IMG/VR virus record: IMGVR_UViG_3300025138_000233
Location: 1 to 29,191 of that record
DNA: 29,191 nt
From: a virus
Reading direction: 5' to 3' (one strand)
Position 1 is the stretch's first letter. Every line of letters begins with the position of its first letter. Below the pieces are notes generated by a model that did not search any database, had not been told where the DNA came from, and was given only the letters and a program-made list of their open reading frames with translations. Below are positions 11,611 to 29,191 of the stretch, in pieces. The position numbers and the translations under genes were made by a program.

Positions 11611-11996
11611 CAGTCACTACCGACAACATTCGAGATTTACTTAATCGACCCCGTGGCCTTAACGAAGGTACTATCACCGAGTACATTTCTATGAGAACAG
11701 AACAAGTCAACAAGTCCGCAAGAAATAACAAGTTTCTTGCAGAAGACTCAATCAATGTGGTCACAACCGCACAAAAAGAAGCCTGTATTAAGGCTCTTGT
11801 ATCAAGCGACTGTTTGCAGGTTATGATTGATACGCTACCTTCTTATGTCAACGAAAGTGAAAGAAAAGAGCAAGATATTCGTTTGACCGCACAACTTAGA
11901 GGATTTACTCAAAGAGGAAACGATTTGCTCGCTCTCATTTCGGAAAAAGGCGGAACGGCTGTTAAAGTCACTTCAACCAAAACGAAGTTAGAGTGA
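11607..11996 (+). CDS. Probable head-tail connector protein, 129 aa, GTG start
   Basis: GTG at 11607 overlaps the upstream stop (GTGA), with GGTGA six bases before it. The all-helical product (VTTDNIRDLLNRPRGLNEGTI; then TTAQKEACIKALVSSDCLQVMIDTLPSYV) has the size and character of small connector or adaptor proteins encoded between major capsid and tail genes. The C-terminus is short and basic. No catalytic motif. The call rests mainly on position and helical composition. Confidence 0.5.
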   Translation: MTVTTDNIRDLLNRPRGLNEGTITEYISMRTEQVNKSARNNKFLAEDSINVVTTAQKEACIKALVSSDCLQVMIDTLPSYVNESERKEQDIRLTAQLRGFTQRGNDLLALISEKGGTAVKVTSTKTKLE

Positions 11997-12001
11997 GTAT
12001 T

Positions 12002-14197
12002 ATGGCAACAATAAAGTGGCTCGGAGGAACCGACACTGCTTCTGCAACTGCGGCTAACTGGAAAGGTGGTTCAGTACCCGGTGCTAACGATGTTGCCCTT
12101 TTTGACAACGAAGGTTTGGCAGACTGCGCTTGGACTTTAACAAGCAGTGGAAGTCTTACTGTTTCGGAAATAGTCATTGAATCAAATTTTGACCATCAAG
12201 TTATTTTAAACGCTATACCATTCGTAAAAGGGTTGTACCTAAACGGTATTTTAAACGCAGGTTCGGCAGGAACAATTGTATTCCAACATGGTGCATCTCC
12301 TAATTTTTTTGGCACATACAAAACATACAATGAAAGATTTATACTGATTGACTCAAACGCATCTTATGTAGGTGATGTGACTTTTTCTCTTGAAGGAAGT
12401 GCATCACCATTAACAAAGTTTGATGATGGAAACCACCCTATTGTGCGATTGACAGGTGGCAAATTTGCTCCCGATTATGTTGCTCCAACATCAACAAGTG
12501 GCAAGGCAACATTTACATCATTTACAATCGCGTCGGGTGTGAACTTTCTTCCGGATGGCGCATTAGTGGATAATGATAGGCTAAAAGTATTTTCTTTTGA
12601 TGCAGTCACAATGACTGATGCTACAACAGTTGACTTTGGTCTTTCGACAGTTGAGTTCACAGCCACCAGTAGTGGCATACAACTACCTGTGGAAGGCGCA
12701 ACAGGTTATCCTGCTACATTCTTACCTTACTACCGAAAGGTAGTGCTAAAGGCTAACACAGCAGGTCATAAAATCTTAATGGCTGACAACACATTTCTTA
12801 GTGTGGAAGAGTTGGAAATACAAGACGGTGTTATGTTTCTTGGGCCACAAACGGCGACTGCACAAGGAGCGGATATTCGCTCAATGAAAACCCCTGTGAT
12901 TCGTGGAACTTGGTCGTTTTCCCAAATATCAGCAGGTGTGTATCGAAGCCCAAGACACGCTTCCGGGCCAATGCCAAAGGTCAACGGCAATTTTCATATC
13001 ACAGGTAAATTAGATGTTGATGGTCTTATTGACCCAACAGGACTTGAATTAAACCCACAAGGTTCTAATCCGGGTGGTACAGCGGCAAATACTCTTTGGC
13101 TCAACAGTGGTGACAGCAACAAACTCTATCACGGGTCAAGCGAGGTAGGTGGTGGTGGCGGTGGTATCACAGCACTCACAGGAGAGGTCACGGCGAGCGG
13201 CTCCGGCTCAGTAGCGGCTACTATTGCTAACTCCGCAGTAGTTGCTGATAAATTAGCCAGCAACGCTGTCACTACTGCAAAGATAAACGCTGATGCTGTG
13301 ACGAATGCTAAAATTGCTGATGATGCGGTTGACACAGAAAATATCGCTGATGATGCAATCACAGCCGCACTTATTGATAATGGGGCAGTAGGCACAGCGG
13401 CTATTGCTAACGATGCTGTCACAGAAGACAAGTTAGCCAACTCACTACTGGCTGAAATTGATGCCAATACAGCCAAGACTGGTATTACCTCCGGCCAAGC
13501 AACTGCTATCACGGCTAATACAGCAAAGGTCACTAACGCTACACACAGCGGAGAAGTCACAGGGGCAACTGCGCTCACTATCGCTGACAATGTGGTTGAC
13601 GAAGCAAACCTCAAGGTATCAAATACCCCTACTAACGGCTACGCTCTTACAGCGCAAAGTGGAGCAAGTGGTGGTTTGACTTGGGCCGCTATGAGTGGTG
13701 GCGCACCTGCCCTTCAATACCTAAGACTCTTTATGAAAAACCTAAGTGGCAACGCCAACAACTACACGGCTACTGGCTCCTATCAAATTTTAGACATAGC
13801 CAACACATCAAATTGGGGAGAATCGACTACTGGAACTCATAACGACATAACAGTGACAAACGCTTCCAGTGACCACATAGTTCTCGGTGCAGGTGGGCTT
13901 TATCACATTATTGTGACTATGGAGTTCTTCCCTGTTAGTGGAGTCACCAGCCGTGATATGTGGATGGTTGTTAGTACCGACACATCAAGTACGGGACAAT
14001 TAGGAAATGCTCGAAGTCAAAATGGTGTTGACAACCTAAAACTACAACACAGCACTTATCACGAAGTTGCTTCGGGAGGCAGTGACGACGAGATTTATTT
14101 TTCAATCCGTTCTAATTCAAACAACAGCAACATTATTGCATTTACTGACCACCGAAGCACCATCCATGTCACCCGTGTAGGAGATTCGACAGTATGA
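12002..14197 (+). CDS. Large fibre/whisker protein with decapeptide repeats and C1q-like tip
   Basis: ATG at 12002 is preferred, with GAGTGAGT upstream; a GTG at 11993 overlapping the upstream stop would add three residues. The roughly 730-residue protein has three parts. An N-terminal region (about 1-370) opens with KWLGGTDTASATAANWKGGSVPGANDVALF, the entry signature of beta-helical adhesins. After a six-glycine linker come seven tandem decapeptides of the form AxxAVxxxKI (about 409-478), which pack into trimeric fibre shafts. A C-terminal beta sandwich (about 570-732; YHIIVTMEFFPV, STIHVTRVG) resembles TNF/C1q trimer tips. It should form a trimeric surface fibre. Its place among connector genes suggests a head or neck whisker rather than a tail fibre. 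Confidence 0.75.
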   Translation: MATIKWLGGTDTASATAANWKGGSVPGANDVALFDNEGLADCAWTLTSSGSLTVSEIVIESNFDHQVILNAIPFVKGLYLNGILNAGSAGTIVFQHGASPNFFGTYKTYNERFILIDSNASYVGDVTFSLEGSASPLTKFDDGNHPIVRLTGGKFAPDYVAPTSTSGKATFTSFTIASGVNFLPDGALVDNDRLKVFSFDAVTMTDATTVDFGLSTVEFTATSSGIQLPVEGATGYPATFLPYYRKVVLKANTAGHKILMADNTFLSVEELEIQDGVMFLGPQTATAQGADIRSMKTPVIRGTWSFSQISAGVYRSPRHASGPMPKVNGNFHITGKLDVDGLIDPTGLELNPQGSNPGGTAANTLWLNSGDSNKLYHGSSEVGGGGGGITALTGEVTASGSGSVAATIANSAVVADKLASNAVTTAKINADAVTNAKIADDAVDTENIADDAITAALIDNGAVGTAAIANDAVTEDKLANSLLAEIDANTAKTGITSGQATAITANTAKVTNATHSGEVTGATALTIADNVVDEANLKVSNTPTNGYALTAQSGASGGLTWAAMSGGAPALQYLRLFMKNLSGNANNYTATGSYQILDIANTSNWGESTTGTHNDITVTNASSDHIVLGAGGLYHIIVTMEFFPVSGVTSRDMWMVVSTDTSSTGQLGNARSQNGVDNLKLQHSTYHEVASGGSDDEIYFSIRSNSNNSNIIAFTDHRSTIHVTRVGDSTV
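13226..13435 (+). repeat. Seven tandem 30-bp (decapeptide) fibre repeats
   Basis: Seven in-frame 30-base units encode variants of ANxAVxxxKI. Amino acids are conserved at the Ala-Val core and the final Lys-Ile/Leu, while third codon positions drift. This shows selection on the protein, not a recent DNA duplication. Confidence 0.8.
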
Positions 14198-17287: not shown

Positions 17288-18286
17288 ATGGCAGTCCAAG
17301 ATATGAATAACCGATATGTAGCCGCAATTAAAGAAGCCGCTTATGGTACAACACCGAGCGGTACTTACTTTTTCGGTGAAATTGACGACGAATCAATCAA
17401 GCACACATACGATGTGATGCAAAGAGAAAACATGAACCGATACGGTGCTTCAAAGGCAAACACCGGAAAGGAGTACGGCGAAGGCGACATTAACATGGCC
17501 GTCCTTAATGACGATTTTACCGGTCTTGTCCTTCTCGGTCTTATGGGAACTGACACCATTGGTTCAGTAGCAAGCGGTCTTTACCCGCATACATTTACCG
17601 AAGCAGGAGCAGGTATCTCAATGAGCCTTGCCATCGCCCGTGAAGAAAAAATCCACTACTACGCCGGAGCAGTTGTTGAAAAGGTTAGCGTTAGTGCCGC
17701 AATCAACGAATACGCTATGATGAGCGCATCTTTTATGACTCAAGCAGAAGGAAGTCTTACCGCACTAACCAGTCTAAGCCCATCATTCCCCGATGATAAG
17801 GCCGCACTTTACTTTTCCGATGCTAAAGTTTTCTTTAACGCTGACTCAACAGCATCCGACGCAGTTAAGTCAATCTCTTTTGATATTGCACTAAACCGTG
17901 ACGGAGATGCCGCCTGTGGTCTTGGCGACCGAACCTATGTTCGTGCCCCACCAGCACAGCGAAGAGAAATCACAGGAAGTATTGAGTTCAACCGAATCCT
18001 ACACAGCGGAGCCGGAGCAAGCAACCCATCCTACGATTCCTTAGTTTCCGCAGATGGTCTTGAACTTTCCGGAAGTGGTGTTGAACTTAAGGTTCAATTT
18101 GGCTCCGAAAGCGTTGCTGACTTGTTGACCTTCAACTTTTACAAAATCCGATTTGAAGCACCCGACGCAAATGTTTCGGGTCGTGACACACAAACATTCA
18201 CTGTGCCATTCGTCGCCCTTTTCAGTTCTAACGATAGCAAGATGATGGATATTGTCATGCGAAACGACAAGAACGCAGTCTATTGA
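17288..18286 (+). CDS. Major tail tube protein
   Basis: 332 residues from ATG 17288 with AAGGTG eight bases upstream. Position between terminator and tail chaperones, length and beta-rich composition fit the tube subunit that polymerises in hexameric rings around the tape measure. The N-terminus (NRYVAAIKEAAYGTTPSGTY) followed by a mid-region LALN-type beta core (SISFDIALNRDGDAACGLGD) and REITGSIEFNRIL is the familiar layout of long-tail tube proteins, including a GxxP/TY start. Codons are optimised and GC-leaning, like the capsid gene. Its stop overlaps the next gene's GAGGTGATTT ribosome binding site. Confidence 0.8.
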   Translation: MAVQDMNNRYVAAIKEAAYGTTPSGTYFFGEIDDESIKHTYDVMQRENMNRYGASKANTGKEYGEGDINMAVLNDDFTGLVLLGLMGTDTIGSVASGLYPHTFTEAGAGISMSLAIAREEKIHYYAGAVVEKVSVSAAINEYAMMSASFMTQAEGSLTALTSLSPSFPDDKAALYFSDAKVFFNADSTASDAVKSISFDIALNRDGDAACGLGDRTYVRAPPAQRREITGSIEFNRILHSGAGASNPSYDSLVSADGLELSGSGVELKVQFGSESVADLLTFNFYKIRFEAPDANVSGRDTQTFTVPFVALFSSNDSKMMDIVMRNDKNAVY

Positions 18287-18296
18287 GGTGATTTAA

Positions 18297-18491
18297 TTGG
18301 CACATAATGGTGGAACCGTTATCGCTGATAAAACCCTCCTTGATGTTTTACAATTCACAGGAACCCCAGCGGTCGTACAGGCCGCACTTAGAGCCGCCAT
18401 CGCAAATGACGATATTATCATTTCTTGCGACACGAGCAGAAAGAAAGATAGCAACGAAATTGTTTTAACCGTTGTTGCTATTATAGCATGA
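18297..18491 (+). CDS. Small protein after the tail tube, 64 aa, TTG start
   Basis: TTG at 18297 is supported by GAGGTGATTT on the tail tube stop codon, nearly identical to the initiation region of the gene at 10575. 64 residues: a helix TLLDVLQFTGTPAVVQAALRAAIANDD and two hydrophobic strands (DIIISCDTS, NEIVLTVVAIIA). No recognised family. It lies between tail tube and chaperone G, where some viruses encode small tail assembly factors. Confidence 0.55.
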   Translation: MAHNGGTVIADKTLLDVLQFTGTPAVVQAALRAAIANDDIIISCDTSRKKDSNEIVLTVVAIIA

Positions 18492-18530: not shown

Positions 18531-18893
18531 ATGCCCGTACTAACAAAAGAATTTGAACTTGATGATGGAACAAAAATCACCGTGCGACAAGCCGGTGGTA
18601 TGACCAAACTCCGAATTGAAAATATCCAAGCACAGGTCTTTCGTGACCACATGCACTTTGGACTTGACACTACCGATTGGACAGAAGAACAACAGAAACA
18701 ATTCGCAAATGCCCTTGAAGAAAAAGGTGCTGGAATGGTTCACCAAATGGAGTCTTGGGTTCCACGAAGTATTATTTCCCCAAAAGATTTTGACATGGAT
18801 TCTTTGACAAGCGAAGAACTGCGAATGATTCTTGGATTTGTTCGTGGTGACGACCCCGAAGGTGCAATCCCTTTGGACAATTCTTCCGAGTAG
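18531..18893 (+). CDS. Tail assembly chaperone G
   Basis: ATG at 18531 with AGAAGTGAAG upstream. 120 residues, acidic, with a strand-rich start (TKEFELDDGTKITVRQ) and a helical second half (WTEEQQKQFANALEEKGAG; LTSEELRMILGFVRG). Position between tail tube and tape measure, size and acidity fit the G chaperone that binds nascent tape measure and tube subunits. Near its 3' end a CCCTTTG heptamer in the correct phase predicts -1 frameshifting into the overlapping T frame. The unshifted product ends at TAG 18891-18893. Confidence 0.75.
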   Translation: MPVLTKEFELDDGTKITVRQAGGMTKLRIENIQAQVFRDHMHFGLDTTDWTEEQQKQFANALEEKGAGMVHQMESWVPRSIISPKDFDMDSLTSEELRMILGFVRGDDPEGAIPLDNSSE

Positions 18894-19168
18894 CCCCGAC
18901 AATTTGCATGGCCTACAAGGGGGTCTTACCCTCGGACTTGTGGGAGAAATATGACTGCGAAGGCGGTCAAGACTTAATGATGATTGATTTGCTCGTAGCG
19001 ATGGATATTCACGATAAGATTTCTTCGGCTACAACCAAGACAAAAGATGGCAACGCTATGGTCGCTCGTCGCAAGCAAAGACAGGAAAAACGAGAACTCT
19101 TAAGTGACGGTGGTGGGCTGGCTATGCTTAGGGGTCTTGGCGTCCCTATAGCGAAGCGTAGCGAGTGA
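18531..19168 (+). CDS. Tail assembly chaperone GT (predicted -1 frameshift product)
   Basis: Ribosomes slipping back one base at 18869-18875 would join G residues 1-115 to 97 residues of the -1 frame, giving 212 residues. The -1 frame is open from 18851 (after a TGA at 18848-18850) to 19168, so the slip must occur in the interval that holds the heptamer. The junction reads GAIPL then GQFFRVAPTICMAYKGVLP. The T part has a helical acidic core (GGQDLMMIDLLVAMDIHDK) and a basic helix (ARRKQRQEKREL). The ATG at 18908 has no ribosome binding site, consistent with T being made only as a fusion. The lambda G/GT arrangement is widely conserved in long-tailed viruses. Confidence 0.7.
18869..18875 (+). 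other. -1 programmed frameshift heptamer CCCTTTG
   Basis: In the G frame it reads C CCT TTG, fitting the canonical X XXY YYZ slippery pattern. TCCGAG (18885-18890) can pair with CTCGGA (18931-18936), and GTAGCC can pair with GGcCTAC inside it. Such a structure starting 9-14 bases downstream is of the kind that stimulates slippage. Confidence 0.65.
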
Positions 19169-19178
19169 AGGTGGAGAA

Positions 19179-22100
19179 ATGATTGGCAACATTATTTTTT
19201 CCCTATCACCTATTATCGCTCTCTTTGCGATGGTCACTATGCTCGTTTTGCGGGCTGGTGCATCCCGTGTTTTCTTCGATGTAGTTGGGTCGTTCCAAGC
19301 CGACAGGCTGATTGGTGACGCCCAAGCAAAAATCACTGTGTTGCAGGGACTTATGCTCGATGGTTTGTCGGGTATCACCGAAGGTATCGGTGAAATGTCA
19401 GCCATGATGGACACCCTTGTTGACGGGACAGTTCCCCTTGCTCAAGAGATTGGAAACGCTCGGATTGAGTTCGAGAAGTTTGCTAATTTTGAAGGGGCGG
19501 AAGACCTACAACAACAAATTATCGACATTGGTGAGTCGTATGCTTTTACAGGCGACCAAGCACTCAAGGCTGGTGCTAAAATGGCACAACTGTCTGCCAT
19601 CGTAGGTGGTGGCCCTGCTACTGCGGCGGCTACCGAAGTCGGTATTCAATTCGGTCTTATCGGTGGTATGGAAACAGAAGATGCCATGAAGAAAATGATT
19701 TCCCTACAACAGCAGACTGGCTTCATGTACGGGGAGTTGACCAAAAAACAATTCAACAGAATGACTGCCGAAGAAAAAGCGAATGTCGTTCGACAAAACA
19801 GCATTCGGATGCTCAACCAACTCAACACAATCGAAAACCGTTCAGCGGCTACCATGTCGCAAATAACCCATGTTATGAATCAATTCGCTTCGTCTGCTAA
19901 ATTGGCTGGTGATGATGTGGCTTACATGGCCGCTATGTCCGCCACTTTAATTGAGGCTGGTGAAGAGCAAGGGAAGGCCGGTCGTGCCCTCAAGATGATG
20001 TATGCCCGTCTTGGTGCCGATACCGGAGGCAACGCAGAAATCCTTAGACAGTTCGGTATCGAAACAAAGGGTGCCAACGGTGCGTTGCGCTCCATGGAAG
20101 CAATCCTTCAAGATGTTGCCGACAGATACCACCAACTTGAAGATGCAGAAAAACTCACTATCGCCCAAGCAATCGCTGGCAACGACCACTATGTTCGTGC
20201 GATTAAGTTGTTTGAGAATCATTCCCGTGTTCTAAAATTAGACAGTGATGCCGTAGCAGAAAAAGATACGGCGCAAGAAGAATTGAACAAGCGCATGAAG
20301 GACAATGTGTTTTTGCTTGAACAACAACAAGCAAGACTTATCAACTCAAAGGCTCTCATTGGAAACGCATTCACCCCTGCCGTTATCCGTGCTACCAAGG
20401 CACAGGCAGACATGAACTTTACTTTTGCCCAAATGATTGAGGAAGGGACGGTTTATGGTCAAGTGATAGGGAAGTTGGCCCAACTACAACAGTTAGGGAA
20501 AACATACGCTCCGATAGCAGAAGCCTACCTAAACGCTTTGTCATTAAATGTTTCCCTAAAAACACAACAACAGATTCAACGGTCTTTGAACAACGAATCG
20601 TTGGTGCGGTCAAGTGCCTATGGCGCACAAGTAGGATTGGGCAAAATCACCTTACAACAACTTGACCGAGAACTTGGGTTGCAGGCCCAAAGCACTGCTT
20701 TACAAATCGCTTCTCTTGGGGTGAGCAACCAACAAAGCGAAGCACAATCGAGAATTGCCATGCTCAAGGGCACTGCGTTAGAAGGTGACTTTAAGGCACT
20801 ACAAGCGGCTCGTGCAGTGACACAACAAAAAGTCACAGAACTACAAATTGAACAACAATCAGCCGCTATCAAATCAATTGCAGAAGCAAAAACCACTACG
20901 GCTACACAACAAAGAATTGCATTGGAAGACCAAGTTAGCACAGCAAAAATTGAACAACTGTCGAGGGTCACAGCAGAAGAACTTGCCCTAAAAAGAATTA
21001 ACGCTGGACAATATAAAAAACTCACAACCGTGGAGGCTGTGTTGGGCAACGCAAGAGCAAGAGCGGGCATAGAAAAAGAATTAGAGAATAACGAAAACAT
21101 ACACGCTATGAAAAAGTTTAGCAACATAAAGCAAATCCTTCGCCTCGAAGAGCAACAGGAAATGAACGCTCAAACGCTCAACGCGATGACTGCGGCGCAT
21201 ACATTTGAAAAGGAAAAACAATTATCTGTTGAGCAAAAACTACTCCAAGTTCAAGACCAAATGATAGCCGATGAAGGAAGGTTGCTTCTTCTTGGGATGA
21301 TGAACAGTGCCGATATTCAAGGCGACACAATGGCACACATGACCCTTGCCGCCGCAAAACAAAGGGTCAACGATGTGACCAAGATGAAGTCCAACACAGA
21401 AACCCAAAACGCCGCCATTATGAAGGCGATGAGTATTGCCGCAACACAATTGGCCGCAACCTACGGACTACAAGAAAAGGAGATAATGAAAATACTCCCT
21501 AAAATGAAGATGTTCGCACAAGGTTTGGCCGCAGTTCAAACCCAACAAGAATTAACCGTAGCATCGTCAATGAGATTTCAAAGTGCCCTAATGAAATCGT
21601 CTATGGGTCTTGGGATGCTTAGTATGGGATTCACCATGTTTAGCGATAGCGAAAAAGCCGCAAGAACAAGTATGATTTTGATGAACTTATCAATGCTCCC
21701 TGCTATTATCCAAATGGCAAGTATGACAAAGGGGGCGGCGGGTATGGCGGCGGGTATGGTGGGTATCACCACCACTACCACAGCGGCAACTGGGGCTTTG
21801 ACAAGGTTCAAGGTAGCGATGATAAGCACAGGTGTTGGCGCAGTTGCGCTTGCGGCTGTTGCTCTTGGTGCTTGGTTCCTTGCAGGTAAGATGGGTTCCG
21901 ACGAAGCAAACGAATCACTTGAAAAATACAACAGAACCTTTGGGTTCACACAAGAACTCTATGACAATATGCTTTCGGCGTATGAAGGCGTTGACATGAC
22001 AAGAATCTTAGACGACCTTGGTATTGCCACAAGAGATATACAGGACACTCTTTCCGACATAGCAAACACCGAAGATGCCGCCCTTATTGCATCCTATGAA

Positions 22101-22811
22101 ACAAAGTTAAAATTAGCCCAAGAAGAAAGAGATGTACTACTACAAATCAAGGCAATTAAAGGAGCGGAAATGCTACTCACCGACACGAACCAAGCCCAAG
22201 GTATATTCGACCAAGTGAAAGGGGCACAGGCAATCAATGATGAACTTAAAGAGGCGAAGGACAATTATGGCTTCTTCGACAAAGGAGTTCAAGCATTTAC
22301 CTACCTCACTTCTATGGGAGATGAAGATTTGGCGAAAAGCCAAACGGTATTAGACATAGAGGCTATCGAACAAAATGCGGAAGATGCTTTTGCCGCTATA
22401 CCCAAAGAGTTCCAAGGTGCTGTACAGGAAATGGCTCAAGAGGCTGATTCGATGGAAGACTTTTTGAGCAAACTTGCGGAGTTCGCAGACAGCACAGGTG
22501 GTGACTTCGGTCGAAACTTTGGCACGGGCATCCAAGAAAATATCATTGGCCCAATAGAAGCGGCAAAGGAAGCGGCGTTTGAGTTTAACAACGCCCGTGA
22601 AGAAATGTTCTTTGGGTTGTCTAAGGGCAACTTGACCGGAGATATGGTGAAGCAAGTAGTGAACAAGGGTGTGGAAACACTTATCAACACCACGGAAGTT
22701 ATTATGACAAATAACTTTACAGGAATGACGACCACACAAGCCGCTAATGAAATCACAAAAGAAGTGATGAAGCAACTTGGAAGCCTTGGTTTGAATGTAC
22801 AACAGGCATAG
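19179..22811 (+). CDS. Tail tape measure protein
   Basis: 1210 residues set tail length; at about 0.15 nm per residue the tail would be near 180 nm. ATG at 19179 has AAGGTGGAG upstream. The hydrophobic N-terminus (IIFSLSPIIALFAMVTMLVL) is followed by a TP901-type minor tail region (about 75-400: GDQALKAGAKMAQLSAIVGG, LAGDDVAYMAAMSATLIEAG). A long Gln/Ala-rich coiled coil spans about 430-770. A hydrophobic cluster near 825-910 (MISTGVGAVALAAVALGAWFL) could insert in the host membrane during DNA ejection. No lytic enzyme motif is evident. Position after the G/GT chaperones is diagnostic. Confidence 0.9.
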   Translation: MIGNIIFSLSPIIALFAMVTMLVLRAGASRVFFDVVGSFQADRLIGDAQAKITVLQGLMLDGLSGITEGIGEMSAMMDTLVDGTVPLAQEIGNARIEFEKFANFEGAEDLQQQIIDIGESYAFTGDQALKAGAKMAQLSAIVGGGPATAAATEVGIQFGLIGGMETEDAMKKMISLQQQTGFMYGELTKKQFNRMTAEEKANVVRQNSIRMLNQLNTIENRSAATMSQITHVMNQFASSAKLAGDDVAYMAAMSATLIEAGEEQGKAGRALKMMYARLGADTGGNAEILRQFGIETKGANGALRSMEAILQDVADRYHQLEDAEKLTIAQAIAGNDHYVRAIKLFENHSRVLKLDSDAVAEKDTAQEELNKRMKDNVFLLEQQQARLINSKALIGNAFTPAVIRATKAQADMNFTFAQMIEEGTVYGQVIGKLAQLQQLGKTYAPIAEAYLNALSLNVSLKTQQQIQRSLNNESLVRSSAYGAQVGLGKITLQQLDRELGLQAQSTALQIASLGVSNQQSEAQSRIAMLKGTALEGDFKALQAARAVTQQKVTELQIEQQSAAIKSIAEAKTTTATQQRIALEDQVSTAKIEQLSRVTAEELALKRINAGQYKKLTTVEAVLGNARARAGIEKELENNENIHAMKKFSNIKQILRLEEQQEMNAQTLNAMTAAHTFEKEKQLSVEQKLLQVQDQMIADEGRLLLLGMMNSADIQGDTMAHMTLAAAKQRVNDVTKMKSNTETQNAAIMKAMSIAATQLAATYGLQEKEIMKILPKMKMFAQGLAAVQTQQELTVASSMRFQSALMKSSMGLGMLSMGFTMFSDSEKAARTSMILMNLSMLPAIIQMASMTKGAAGMAAGMVGITTTTTAATGALTRFKVAMISTGVGAVALAAVALGAWFLAGKMGSDEANESLEKYNRTFGFTQELYDNMLSAYEGVDMTRILDDLGIATRDIQDTLSDIANTEDAALIASYETKLKLAQEERDVLLQIKAIKGAEMLLTDTNQAQGIFDQVKGAQAINDELKEAKDNYGFFDKGVQAFTYLTSMGDEDLAKSQTVLDIEAIEQNAEDAFAAIPKEFQGAVQEMAQEADSMEDFLSKLAEFADSTGGDFGRNFGTGIQENIIGPIEAAKEAAFEFNNAREEMFFGLSKGNLTGDMVKQVVNKGVETLINTTEVIMTNNFTGMTTTQAANEITKEVMKQLGSLGLNVQQA

Positions 22812-22827
22812 ATAGAGAAGTGAGAGA

Positions 22828-25800
22828 AATGTCAAGAACAGCAACAAGCAAATACGGATTTTGGCTCGCAGGCTCCTACGAAGACTTTCTTGGGTCGAAG
22901 GTTATCACAGATGATAGCAACCAACCGTCAACGGCTGGAACCTACGATGCAACAAAAACACACCACGGAAACATTCTAAACGGCGAGGCGACAATCAATC
23001 CTCGATACCGATGGTCGATACGCGATAGAGCCAACAATAGTGAGTTCTCAGATTCGACCAACTACTTAGCCTCTAACGACGGCATTTTTCGCTGGGCTAC
23101 CCTTGACCCTATTAGACTCGGAATGGGCGAGAAATGGGCTGGGAGAGCGCAGAATCAATACCCTAACACACTTGTCAACGCTAACCGTGTAAGATACAAC
23201 AAAGCAGGCAATAATAACAGCGACGATTCGTACATGATTATGTCTTCGACTTACGATACCTCACAGCGATACTACATTCCTACCGGTGACACGGATTCAA
23301 CCTTTGGTCGAACAACAAAATACGATTGGAATGGACGCAATTGGTTCAAATTGCAGTCCGGAAGAATCAGCAGTGGTACTCTCCCCGACTTCATGCAACA
23401 CGCCCACCTAACAGGTTGTTGGATGGGTGAACGAATACAACCGAACGCATACAATGGTACTACTGGTGCCGAAGTTGCGGCCCATGTCAATAACCCCGAA
23501 GCCATATTCAAACCCATAAAAAGCAACGCCGGAAAACCATTTTTGTGTGTGACGACTTACCTCGCTGACGACACAGCAAACCAAATCAACAACTCGGCAC
23601 CGAGCGGAGCGTTCCGACCGGTTATCGCATCTTCCAAGAATCTTAACAGCAAATCCACAGGTGATTTTTTCAGCATTCGCATGTGCAGTCAAGCGATGCT
23701 TGGCTTTGCTTCAAGCATACCCAACGAATCAACCGAGTCGGGAGCGCAGGTAAAATACAATTTGAAGATTGGGTTCCCCACTTCGACCTCCTTTGGCACT
23801 GCCGGTAGTGGCGGTGCTACGCCAGCAATCAATTGGACATTCATTCCCCACGCAGGAACAGGACTTAGTGAAAACGAAAACCTGTACCACTTAGATTGGA
23901 TTGGTGGACAAGACCTTCGCAACCCAAACCTTGACCCGTGGTATGATTTGGAGTTCCGAATTGATTATGAAACGAATAAGTACAAGGTCTTCCACGAAGG
24001 CACAGAAGTCACAGCAACCAACGCAACCGGAGGTTCTTACTCTTCCGGCTATACTATGGCTAACAACACCGATACTTCTGCCGCATTCAAAGCGAGCGAA
24101 CTGACCGGTTGGGAAATGTTCGTAGTACCCAACAGTAGTGCGAGCAATAAATGTGTAGTTGCGACCATGATTGACCGATGGGCCTTGATGCGCCCACTGA
24201 CTGACTACACAACAGACGCCGCCCCTGTTGCATCCTTTACTTGCACCATGCCAACAAACGGAGTTAGTGCCGCCTCAATAACAATCCTTGACGACGACAC
24301 AGAACAAAATCTAACACCGTGGTTTGTGAGCGACGAAATCACAGATTGGCGACTACTGATGTTCAACAACAATACCCACAGACCACTGTGGTGCGGCGTT
24401 ATTGAATCGGTAAGTGTGACTCAATCCGCATCACAACGGTCAAGAGAAATACAAGTCCAAGCGAGGGATTCACTTTCCATCTTAGACCGTCAAATGTCCT
24501 CTTGGGAACTTGGGCAAATCGGTCTTGGCAACAGCGACCAAGTGCTTGCACGAAAAGAAGAGGTGGCTTTGCTATCCGATTCAATGTTTATGGGAGTAGC
24601 GCGATTGGAAGACTCAAATGCGACGATTGGATTTGAAGCATCGAGTGGCTACAAGGAATTAGAGGGACAGCGGACTCGACTCAACACTGCCCACCCAATT
24701 CAAATGTACAACAACGAAGATACCTATGGCCCGAACAATGTCGAACGGGACTACTACGGCTACGAAGTCGGCGGTATCAACCAATACACACAAAGCGGTG
24801 CAGACCACACAGAACTTATCTTGACCCATACCGGAACTTCCTACACCACAAGCAGTAGGCCCGATTTGATTTTCTTCGACAGCCATAACAAGACAACCGC
24901 AGTGGTAAGCACGGTCAACGCTACGGGACATTCTGCACCAATCACCAACTACGGACAGCGGTTGACAATCACCGGTCTAACCTATGTTCCCAACACGACA
25001 GCAACACTTGAAGGAATACAATCAACATACCCCCGAACAAACGGACAGTCGGGGTACTTAATTCTAAAGTTCACACAACGCCCAACACGGGCAGATGGTA
25101 CAGGTCTTGACACGGGCGACTTTATCACTATACCGAGTACCGCAACAGGCATAGGAGTTTCCTACCGTGGTATGCACAAGATTTCTGCCACCGAAGAGTT
25201 CGGTGGTAAATTCTATGCTAAGACAGACTCGGTGCGTTCAGCATTTAGTACCGTCACGAGCAACACCGAGTTCACTATTGAAAAGGGAAAAATAACTTTG
25301 GCCGCAGAAGATTTGACGGCTCGTGACCAACACGCTGTTTGGATGAGGCAACTTCAAGAGTCGGCTTGGTTCCAAAGACACTTCGGCATCTATGGTAGGG
25401 ATTTTACAGACGGAGGCACTACCCAAGAAGCATTCACAGCCAACGCTGGTACAATCAAAGTATCATCGTCTTTTATCGACAGTTCGACCAAGAATGGTGT
25501 AGGACAAATCAAAAACGCCGCAGGCTTCCATGACACATTTTCCTACGCAGGCTTCCTATCGCCAGCAGTGGATGGCAACCATTATCTCATCGGCGTTGAA
25601 GGTTTGTCTATTGACCACGAAAGCGGTGAAAACATATATACTCTTGACATATCCAAGGACTACAAACATATTTGGTTGCAGTGGGCCGACATGAGAAACA
25701 ACGGTGACGCAAATGCTGATGGTGGGTTTAGGAAGAAGTCGTGGGGGCTTTTGAAGCCGGTACCGGACAACTACGATATTTCAATATCATTCACAGACCA

Positions 25801-28800
25801 AACGACAGACGATGGTGAATACGACTCATTTACTTCTCTCAAGATTGGTAGTGATGTTGACATTTGGGAAATTGACAGCACTTTAGAACCATCAACACTC
25901 GCCCCGTGGTCAAGACCGCTGGTTGACGAAGCAACAAGGGAGCCACGAAATGTAAGTGGCAATTCAATCGTTTCTGCCGCAAGCGGGGCGAAGATAACCT
26001 TGTACGCCAAGGATGCCGCCGCCGCCGCTAATCTTTCAAACGGTGACTTTATCACAATCTTCAACGCCACTAATTATGCTGGTACGCATGAAGTCGAATC
26101 TGTTAGCACTGCTGATATTCTCTTAAAAACAACCTACAAAGATGTGACCGAACCATACAGCGCAACCGGAGTATTCTTCAAGAAATTGCAGGTTGTCGAT
26201 AGTAGGTTGACCAACCTCAACGACTGGCACGACAAGGCCGGTTCGTTGTTGGTCTATGACTGTTCTAAGTTCTTTAACCTCAATACTTTTATCAACGGGG
26301 GAAAGGTTGGACAATCAAGCGGTGGCTCGGTGAGTGTAGGTGACTACGAAACCGAGTATCACGGATTCCCCGTGCTGATGGACAACTATTGGGCACAAGC
26401 CGCAAGCACAAACATTAACAACGCAAGCCCATACGCCACCCACCCGAACTTCCGTCGGTGGGTCAACGCAAGCGCAGAACTTAACCGAACAATCGAAGTC
26501 GGTGACACCGTGATTGAAACCAAACCATCAACGAGCCTTGTCGCAGACTTCCCGACAGAAGGGTACGGCAAAATCAAAGCATCGAGAGATGTGGATGGGG
26601 TCAACCCATCGTTTGAGATATTTTGGTACACCTACGATGGTAAGTTATCGACAGGTGTTGTTGAATCAGCAACGAGTGCAAACAGCGCAAGCCCAATTGT
26701 CATAACTTGCAGTGGTGCGGACTTTGTGAATGATGGAGTTAAAGCCGGAATGAGAGTTAGAAATGTCACAGCGAAGTGGGTTGCCCAAATCGCAAGTGTG
26801 ACTGCCACGGCTATAACCATTTCCGGAACACCCTACCAAGAAACAGGTAGTACAAGAGCCGATGTTGCGTCGAGTGATAGCATCAGCATCCCACAGCAGT
26901 TGTACGGTATTTACACGCAGTCCGATATGGCGAGCAACTACTCGGCAGAACAAGCCATTTCCTTGCTTGAGGGAATACAGATGGACGATGTGATTAAAGC
27001 CGCAGGGTCAACGGCAACAATCGCAGTCAACCTACCCGGAAGTTCCGGCGTTAGTGGCGCATACGATGAAGTCGTAGTCATGGGTTCAGTGGCACCTCGC
27101 TACGCTCTTAGATTCCTCATGCGGAACGAGGGCTACGCAATCAGCCCCAACAACGGGACATATTGGATTAACGATAAAATTAGATACCTTTGGAACTTCA
27201 ACTTGTCCGACACATGGCTTTCACAATCTTCGGTTTCCTGTTGGTATGATATTGGCTCAATACCAATGTACCAAAACATGACCATCGACGGAACGGACAG
27301 CGAGTTTGATTCTTTCGGTGGGATATACGACGGACGAGGCGGGAAGTCGATTTACTCAATTATTCGAGAGTCAACCGAAGCATCGGGGGTTGGTTATGAT
27401 TTTGGTAAAAGAATACCCGTGACATACCAAATGGGACGAGATAACAAACTTGAACTGCGACCCACTTACAACTCCGGAGAGGTTCTAAACCGAGCAATCC
27501 TCAAGGTCAACAGCCTCAACGCTAATATGGCCCAACAGATAACAAATGTACGGGTGTACTACAACAACGGCGGTTCATTCTCCGACTTCCCAGCACCGAG
27601 CCTAAACCAAACCTACCGATGGAAAATTGTCGAACAGTCGGAGATTCACTCCGAAGAAGAAGCCAATCTCGTAGCACAAGAAGAATACTATAAAGCCAAA
27701 ACAAAGACAATCAAGGTACAAGGTGAACTGATAAGAGAAGTCGATTCGGAAGACATTATGTTGGAGAAGGGGCGGTACGGATATGTAGCCGACCCGACTC
27801 GACACACCGAGCGACCAATCATAGGTCAGTATGCTTTCGGTTCGGGCTACCCCGCCGCATCACAAGACTTCAACCAACAGTGGTCGGGCATGAACGGAAC
27901 TCTTGTCAACGGTATGTGCAACGCCCTTGACGGCAATTTGGGAACCACGGACGCAGACCTACTAAAAAGAAATCGCTACGGTCAAGGGTTTATCGCCGCC
28001 GCAAGTACAGCCGCAGATTCGGCACACGCCTACACATCTTCGTATTGGTGGTGGGGCGCACACAGCATTAGCCACGCAGTACAAGTCGTACATATCCCAA
28101 GCGGTATGCCTACTACAAGCGACGGTAGTAGTGACGACTTGAGGATTTGGGTTGCCCTAAAAGACGGGCAAAGTGGTACCGACATTGAAAACGCCGAGTT
28201 CACAATCGGAGTCACCGATGTATCGCTAACTACTTCCGTAAGCAACTTCACGGCGAGTGGCGGACAGCCGATGGCATTCTCCCCAACGCTGGCTAACACT
28301 GCTTCATCGTCAAGATTTAAGACAAAAGATGTAAAGCGAAACGGATTTTATGAGATTGAGATACCAGCGAGTTATTGGAACAGTCAACCTTCGGGTGCCC
28401 GAATAACTGTTTCGGTAAATGTTGAGTACCTCAAAGGTCTTCTGTATCACAGGTGTGGCGACCCCACAGCATCCGGCATCCTACACAACGCTCACAACAT
28501 AACCGAAGCGGGGCCGTCTGCTTGGTCAGCAACCAGCGCAGATTCTATCTTCCCTCTCGGATTGAGAAAGTACGATAACATGTCCGGACTGTTTGGTGTG
28601 AGAAATGTTTGGTACTGCCCACGAATACATATCGTGCCCGATGTTAGGTGGCGACCTGCGACCACAGTGGCATTGACCGATGCTGGGCTTGGTCTTTCGG
28701 CGGAACCTATGGTCATTAAGAATATCAACTGGACTGTTGATGGGCGAGATATTGAGCAGGTGACTTTGGAACTTGACCGTGACCAAACCAAGGATGCTGG

Positions 28801-29191
28801 CGGACTTGCTTCGTACTTGTACCCCTCCGTCGCAAGAGGGAGAGGGCAAGGAGTGGGTAGTGGTACTGTCGGCGGAGGTGATAGCGGACGACCACAAACA
28901 CCACCACCAATAGTGCCGCCATCGAGCGGGCCTGTCGGTTCTAACCCCGTCACTCCGGGACAATACGAAGGCGGAAGAGGTGACTTGGGTGCTGGGGGGT
29001 CTTTCCAATCGAGAATTGGAGCGAATGCTTTGGCTTCCGGAATACATGGTAAGATTTCCGGAAGGATGAACATGAACGATAATGGCGTTTCCGGCTCATC
29101 CTTGAGCCTTCTCGGTCAAACGAGGGTTGCACCACCTATCAACACACAAAGGCCCGTGGACGGGCTGGGAGATGCCATTTCTGCCACTTCC
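22828..29191 (+). CDS. Giant tail hub/tip protein, 3' end cut by window
   Basis: ATG at 22828 follows a weak GAAGTGAGAG site. I read the frame through without a stop to the window end, so at least 2121 residues. About 310-442 look like a lectin/LamG-type sandwich (WYDLEFRIDYETNKYKVFHE; GWEMFVVPNSS). About 482-555 match a baseplate-hub barrel: DWRLLMFNN, LWCGVIESVSVTQS, SREIQVQARDSLSILDR. Long beta-rich insertions follow. About 1527-1638 resemble the distal hub domains (NSLNANMAQQITNVRVYYN, then EEANLVAQEEYYKAKTKTI). A Gly/Pro linker (about 2001-2055) precedes the cut end. It should close the tail and carry receptor-binding modules. It follows the tape measure, as tail tip genes do. Confidence 0.75.

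Follow-up and report, generated by a model that had tools for sequence, protein, structure and literature searches.

A conserved CCCTTTN heptamer points to -1 frameshifting in the tail chaperone gene pair of a probable archaeal tailed virus

How is the second of two overlapping genes translated when its only nominal start codon lacks a ribosome binding site? This question was raised by a pair of genes, G and T, in IMG/VR virus record IMGVR_UViG_3300025138_000233, a 29 kb fragment (29,191-base viral contig) that was analysed at its full length and is hereafter called the window. A preliminary description, made from the sequence of the window alone, had read the string C CCT TTG near the end of G as the site of a -1 frameshift in tail chaperone genes. 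On the sequence comparisons described below, we consider it very probable that G and T form a cassette for programmed -1 frameshifting that makes a G-T tail assembly chaperone; the virus is tailed, and its host is probably archaeal.

Over G, a TGA (18848-18850) interrupts the -1 frame, which from 18851 stays open up to a stop at 19166-19168. The G stop codon lies at 18891-18893, and the sole stretch in which a -1 shift from G reaches the T frame is 18851-18893. Within this interval C CCT TTG is the only heptamer of the X XXY YYZ type in phase with G, and it sits 15 nucleotides (nt) 5' of the G stop; the phase and the usable interval given in the preliminary description agree with our coordinates. 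A shift at this site would give join(18531..18875, 18875..19168), a fusion of 212 amino acids (aa) with the junction ...EGAIPL/GQFFRVAPTICMAYKG... (for the individual features, see Table 1). G also contains C CCA AAA in phase (18779-18785), but this heptamer was rejected as a slip site because the -1 frame from there meets the TGA at 18848 and the relatives do not keep C CCA AAA. X XXY YYZ heptamers occurred at 25 of the 5937 in-phase positions in the genes of the window, which corresponds to a 5.3% chance of at least one in 13 positions, and the bare string CCCTTTG occurred 8 times in the window against 4.9 expected, which is no enrichment. Judged on the window sequence alone, the heptamer is weak evidence; since it is barely beyond chance on one sequence, relatives were collected for comparison.

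The relatives comprised 44 contigs with the G pattern, 39 more with an alignment to G, and further ones with an alignment to T (121 contigs in total, including the window). The search patterns left out the heptamer, and the most distant G proteins among the relatives shared 44% amino-acid identity. Tree reconstruction and the counting of codon changes were performed with 96 distinct G genes. In this comparison of homologous G/T pairs, which had been proposed in the preliminary description, C CCT TTN was present in 116 of the 121 contigs (C CCT TTG in 84, C CCT TTT in 17, C CCT TTA in 15, another string in 5), and in 29 of 31 representatives after thinning to <75% nucleotide identity. The overlap of the two open reading frames accordingly carries an X XXY YYZ heptamer in phase in the window and 115 relatives, and five relatives are without it. 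The distance from the heptamer to the end of G varied from 0 to 27 nt (0 to 9 codons), and the fusion frame was unbroken in the relatives checked despite this variable tail of G. As a separate observation, the G stop follows the heptamer directly (CCCTTTATAG, CCCTTTGTAG) in L115, L182, L198, L223, L233, L240 and similar contigs, which puts the stop in the next A site.

Could such conservation result from protein constraint, codon usage or chance? The proline is nearly invariant, and the chance figure for the window alone, given above, is not negligible. However, the CCT codon underwent no synonymous change on the tree (95 genes with proline), against a median of 22 synonymous changes in the 27 four- or six-fold degenerate columns of G, and the site is conserved beyond what the amino acid needs; elsewhere in G all four proline codons are used, CCT accounting for 33%. 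The leucine codon of the heptamer changed three times, always between TTG and TTA and never to CTN, whereas about 48% of the leucine codons elsewhere in G are CTN. The base 5' of CCT is C in 91 of the 96 distinct genes, although the codon to which it belongs encodes isoleucine, valine, leucine or proline. The Z position of the heptamer varies (G, A, T) while CCCTTT stays, and in a clade of 19 members the zero-frame residue is phenylalanine (TTT) in place of leucine; since the TT stretch was kept when the leucine was lost, it is the slippery string that is conserved, not the amino acid. Protein constraint, codon usage or chance is thus a hardly credible origin of the pattern. Transcriptional slippage and sequencing errors can fuse overlapping frames elsewhere, and a frame change at the RNA level, or an error in the reads, could be considered in place of slippage by the ribosome. 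The former is documented in other systems (PMC5009743), but the site here consists of two runs of three bases without any long homopolymer, and the frame relation is identical in 121 separately assembled contigs; we give this explanation almost no weight either.

Alternatively, ribosomes that have ended at the G stop could reinitiate at the ATG at 18908 and make T as a separate protein (translational coupling), without any frameshift. The gap from the G stop to this ATG is only 14 nt, as would suit reinitiation. The ATG is, however, devoid of a Shine-Dalgarno sequence: the pairing energy there was -2.2 kcal/mol, against a background median of -2.4 kcal/mol, and was -5.6 kcal/mol for G and -7.3 kcal/mol for the tape measure gene. 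In this point as well the preliminary description, in which T had no ribosome binding site of its own, was right. Moreover, the T-frame residues encoded before the ATG, including those past the G stop, are conserved among the relatives. In the 34 relatives that share the ATG position of the window (+17), changes in the T codons that follow the G stop and precede the ATG fell mostly on third positions; at the first, second and third positions they numbered, for example, 0/1/5 for an alanine and 0/0/5 for a cysteine codon. The methionine itself is replaced by serine or glutamine in 27 of the 96 distinct relatives, and the first 20 codons of T contain no ATG at all in 16 distinct relatives. In the structure model of T, a confident first helix spans residues 2-13 and is encoded nearly entirely 5' of the ATG (residue 12), so that a start at residue 12 would cut it, which counts against a separate start at 18908. 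Reinitiation would also leave the frozen CCT codon unexplained. We therefore regard it as a very unlikely source of T in the window, where ATG 18908 is probably an internal methionine codon of the fusion rather than a start. The -1 frameshift reading of the preliminary description was in these respects borne out by the conserved heptamer, the synonymous constraint, the continuous fusion and the relatives without a T start.

Several observations nevertheless weigh against programmed frameshifting at the heptamer, and the group of relatives in which leucine is replaced by phenylalanine (the TTT clade, L191-L241) provides two of them. The exact heptamer is absent in L203, L204, L227, L230 and L234, in which its first base is G, T or A and, in one of the five, CCT is replaced by CAT. 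In most members of the TTT clade the G stop and the T ATG share bases (TGATG/TAATG), an arrangement that could allow reinitiation and speaks in its favour, and the heptamer is degraded only there, and only sometimes. All five exceptions belong to this one sister clade. The preliminary description had counted relatives lacking a slippery heptamer in the overlap as evidence against its reading; such evidence exists in part, in these five contigs, all outside the window's own clade, and the other 116 of the 121 keep the string. Reinitiation may produce T in the TTT clade, or else the ribosome may slip on TTTT alone. A switch from frameshifting to reinitiation within L191-L241 is a possible view of this clade.

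The other opposing points concern stimulation and family assignment. A stable downstream RNA structure near the heptamer is not supported. The downstream stem that had been noticed in the window is only nominal, with z-scores of 0.06, -0.27 and -1.41 for stretches of 60-100 nt and of -0.42 at a spacer of 5, and in the 96 distinct relatives neither single folds nor a sliding scan gave a local signal, pseudoknots lying outside the modelling. The mean z-score just 3' of the site in the relatives was -0.82, a value matched elsewhere in G and T; no unusually stable structure was found 5-9 nt downstream, and the relatives gave no support for a conserved element there. In addition, neither G nor T gave a significant match to a named chaperone family in Pfam, PHROG or NCBIfam; as chaperone families are very divergent, the missing match neither files the G-T pair nor excludes it from such a family. 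A Shine-Dalgarno-like stretch upstream of the heptamer is a better candidate for a stimulator than the downstream stem. Its pairing with the anti-Shine-Dalgarno sequence in the relatives averaged -6.8 kcal/mol, against -5.7 kcal/mol for synonymously re-drawn codons; redraws as strong as the observed pairing numbered 0 of 1000 with 40 representatives and 4 of 1000 with 31. The scan of G revealed an equally strong excess nowhere else, and the stretch just 5' of it showed avoidance. The Shine-Dalgarno-like stretch is fixed in place relative to the heptamer but not to the G stop. Its spacing, however, also counts on the opposing side: in most cases only 3-6 nt separate it from the heptamer, less than the 9-14 nt upstream at which such stretches are found in bacterial -1 sites (PMC5009743), and its role is therefore a suggestion only.

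These sequence features and their conservation are what was observed; from them we infer that a minority of ribosomes slips, that the products act as chaperones and that the upstream stretch may take part. In the frameshift mechanism that we propose, the majority of ribosomes would end at the G stop and make G (120 aa). In a minority, the tRNAs on CCT and TTG would slip back by one base, with tRNA-Pro re-pairing on CCC and the A-site tRNA on TTT, and these ribosomes would continue in the T frame to give the G-T protein of 212 residues; the Shine-Dalgarno-like stretch may slow the ribosome. By analogy with gpG/gpGT of phage lambda, G and G-T would be made in a set proportion, act as chaperones of the tape measure protein and bring in tail tube subunits. 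The predicted junction tryptic peptide of G-T is GDDPEGAIPLGQFFR (leucine, TTG read before the slip) or GDDPEGAIPFGQFFR (phenylalanine, TTT read after the slip).

The gene order is that of a lambda-type chaperone pair, tail tube - G - T - tape measure. The tail tube gene precedes G in all 111 testable relatives, and in 90 of 95 the tape measure gene follows G-T. Two genes belong to named families, and their assignments are listed in Table 1. For G, the predicted fold had a pLDDT of 89 (predicted local distance difference test), and the top PDB match obtained with Foldseek was the HK97 tail assembly chaperone 2ob9, although it is weak (E 0.26). With VIA-align, the G model gave Z 4.8 for both 2ob9 and YqbN 3klu, over 82 and 78 of the 120 residues, respectively, and several viral models called 'tail assembly chaperone' were among the weak fold matches of G. 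The fold likeness of the G model to the HK97 chaperone is thus weak but coherent with the gene order. A comparison of G with T revealed no homology, the predicted fold of T gave one weak unnamed match among viral models, and a search with G of GTDB genomes and INPHARED phages gave no match. Other reading frames of the window were also noted: a 64-aa open reading frame at 18297-18491, between the tail tube gene and G, has a strong Shine-Dalgarno sequence and no family match; an open frame of 2124 aa with a GTG start (22820-29191) directly follows the tape measure gene and runs off the contig; and a 734-aa protein (11993-14197) contains NAVT/NDAV-like repeats that recall those of tail fibres.

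Table 1. Coordinates of the G-T region and its neighbouring genes in the window
Feature	Coordinates	Strand	Remarks
Tail tube protein gene	17288..18286	+	332 aa; PF18906 Phage_tube_2
G, putative short tail assembly chaperone, zero-frame product	18531..18893	+	120 aa; 120 related contigs
Shine-Dalgarno-like stretch GAAGGTGC	18858..18865	+	Upstream of heptamer; possible stimulator
Putative slippery heptamer C CCT TTG (X XXY YYZ)	18869..18875	+	CCT 18870-18872 and TTG 18873-18875 in G frame
T part read after the predicted -1 shift (GQFFRVAPTICMAYKG...)	18875..19168	+	97 residues plus stop
Nominal T start ATG	18908..18910	+	Without Shine-Dalgarno; Met not kept in some relatives (Ser or Gln)
Tape measure protein gene	19179..22811	+	1210 aa; PF10145, PHROG 5448/28

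The host was approached through the longer relatives. A family B DNA polymerase (PolB) was looked for in the window and not found; PolB and the small subunit of the clamp loader RFC were both present in 16 of 16 relatives of 60-74 kb (G001-G016). The best named phage matches of this PolB were the haloarchaeal viruses HCTV-5 (the best) and HVTV-1, and the best PDB match of the RFC-type subunit was an archaeal RFC. Among the 24 cellular matches in the RFC alignment, 23 were titled Thermoplasmata, Thermoplasmatales or Thermoplasmatota, and one 'uncultured archaeon'. No PCNA was detected in the 16 long relatives. T4-like phages likewise carry related clamp loaders, and the RFC evidence is therefore not proof of an archaeal host. 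Still, with PolB and an archaeal-type clamp loader in the relatives, and with Thermoplasmata as the nearest cellular matches, an archaeal host is quite likely, and these genes suggest a virus of Poseidoniales or similar archaea. The long relatives also combine PolB with archaeal-type replication genes, as expected of a magrovirus-like archaeal tailed virus.

The preliminary description had further called the site an uncommon archaeal case. The archaeal part is likely, by way of the relatives' genes; as for its rarity, -1 chaperone frameshifting has already been reported for haloarchaeal viruses, and the mechanism is well known in other tailed viruses. It has been proposed for the tail chaperone gene pair of HVTV-1 and HCTV-1/2/5 (PMC5009743, PMC8211752) and of Hardycor1 (PMC7911831). 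Our literature search found no report of it for comparable marine viruses of archaea, although one may exist, and, for frameshifting in magroviruses, nothing beyond a mention in a reference list. What is new here is an unusually well-conserved comparative case from viruses that probably infect archaea and are distant from the few examples among haloviruses. Ordinary annotation of such uncultured marine viruses would miss the G-T protein, and CCCTTTN with the upstream Shine-Dalgarno-like stretch offers a concrete site for studying slippage of the archaeal ribosome. A wider and rather doubtful conjecture is that -1 frameshifting on CCCTTTN, aided by an internal Shine-Dalgarno-like stretch instead of a downstream fold, is shared by a large set of marine viruses infecting Thermoplasmata-type archaea, and that one sister clade has in part exchanged it for stop-start reinitiation. 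If this were true, frameshifting and reinitiation could be compared for one gene pair in close relatives.

Among known systems, phage lambda can serve as a reference. Its slip site is G GGA AAG (GGGAAAG), whereas the heptamer here is CCCTTTN, and neither G nor T matched a named chaperone family in sequence. Both systems have a short G and a longer G-T (a predicted one here) encoded between the tail tube and tape measure genes, and in both the X XXY YYZ heptamer for the -1 shift lies towards the 3' end of G (PMC5009743). The ratio of 30:1 is that of lambda; the shift here is a prediction, and so would be any such ratio. HK97 2ob9 and YqbN 3klu differ from G in sequence (about 10% identity), and their scores are weak. 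In bacterial dnaX, too, a Shine-Dalgarno-like stretch lies upstream of a -1 heptamer, but the spacing here is shorter than 9-14 nt (PMC5009743) and no downstream stem was found here. HCTV-5 shares the annotated order of tail tube, joined chaperone coding sequence and tape measure; its G had no detectable homology to G of the window. In the haloviruses of the HF1 group and HSTV-2, the same two chaperone genes are likewise thought to be fused by frameshifting (PMC7230728, PMC5009743), but there the shift is +1, not -1.
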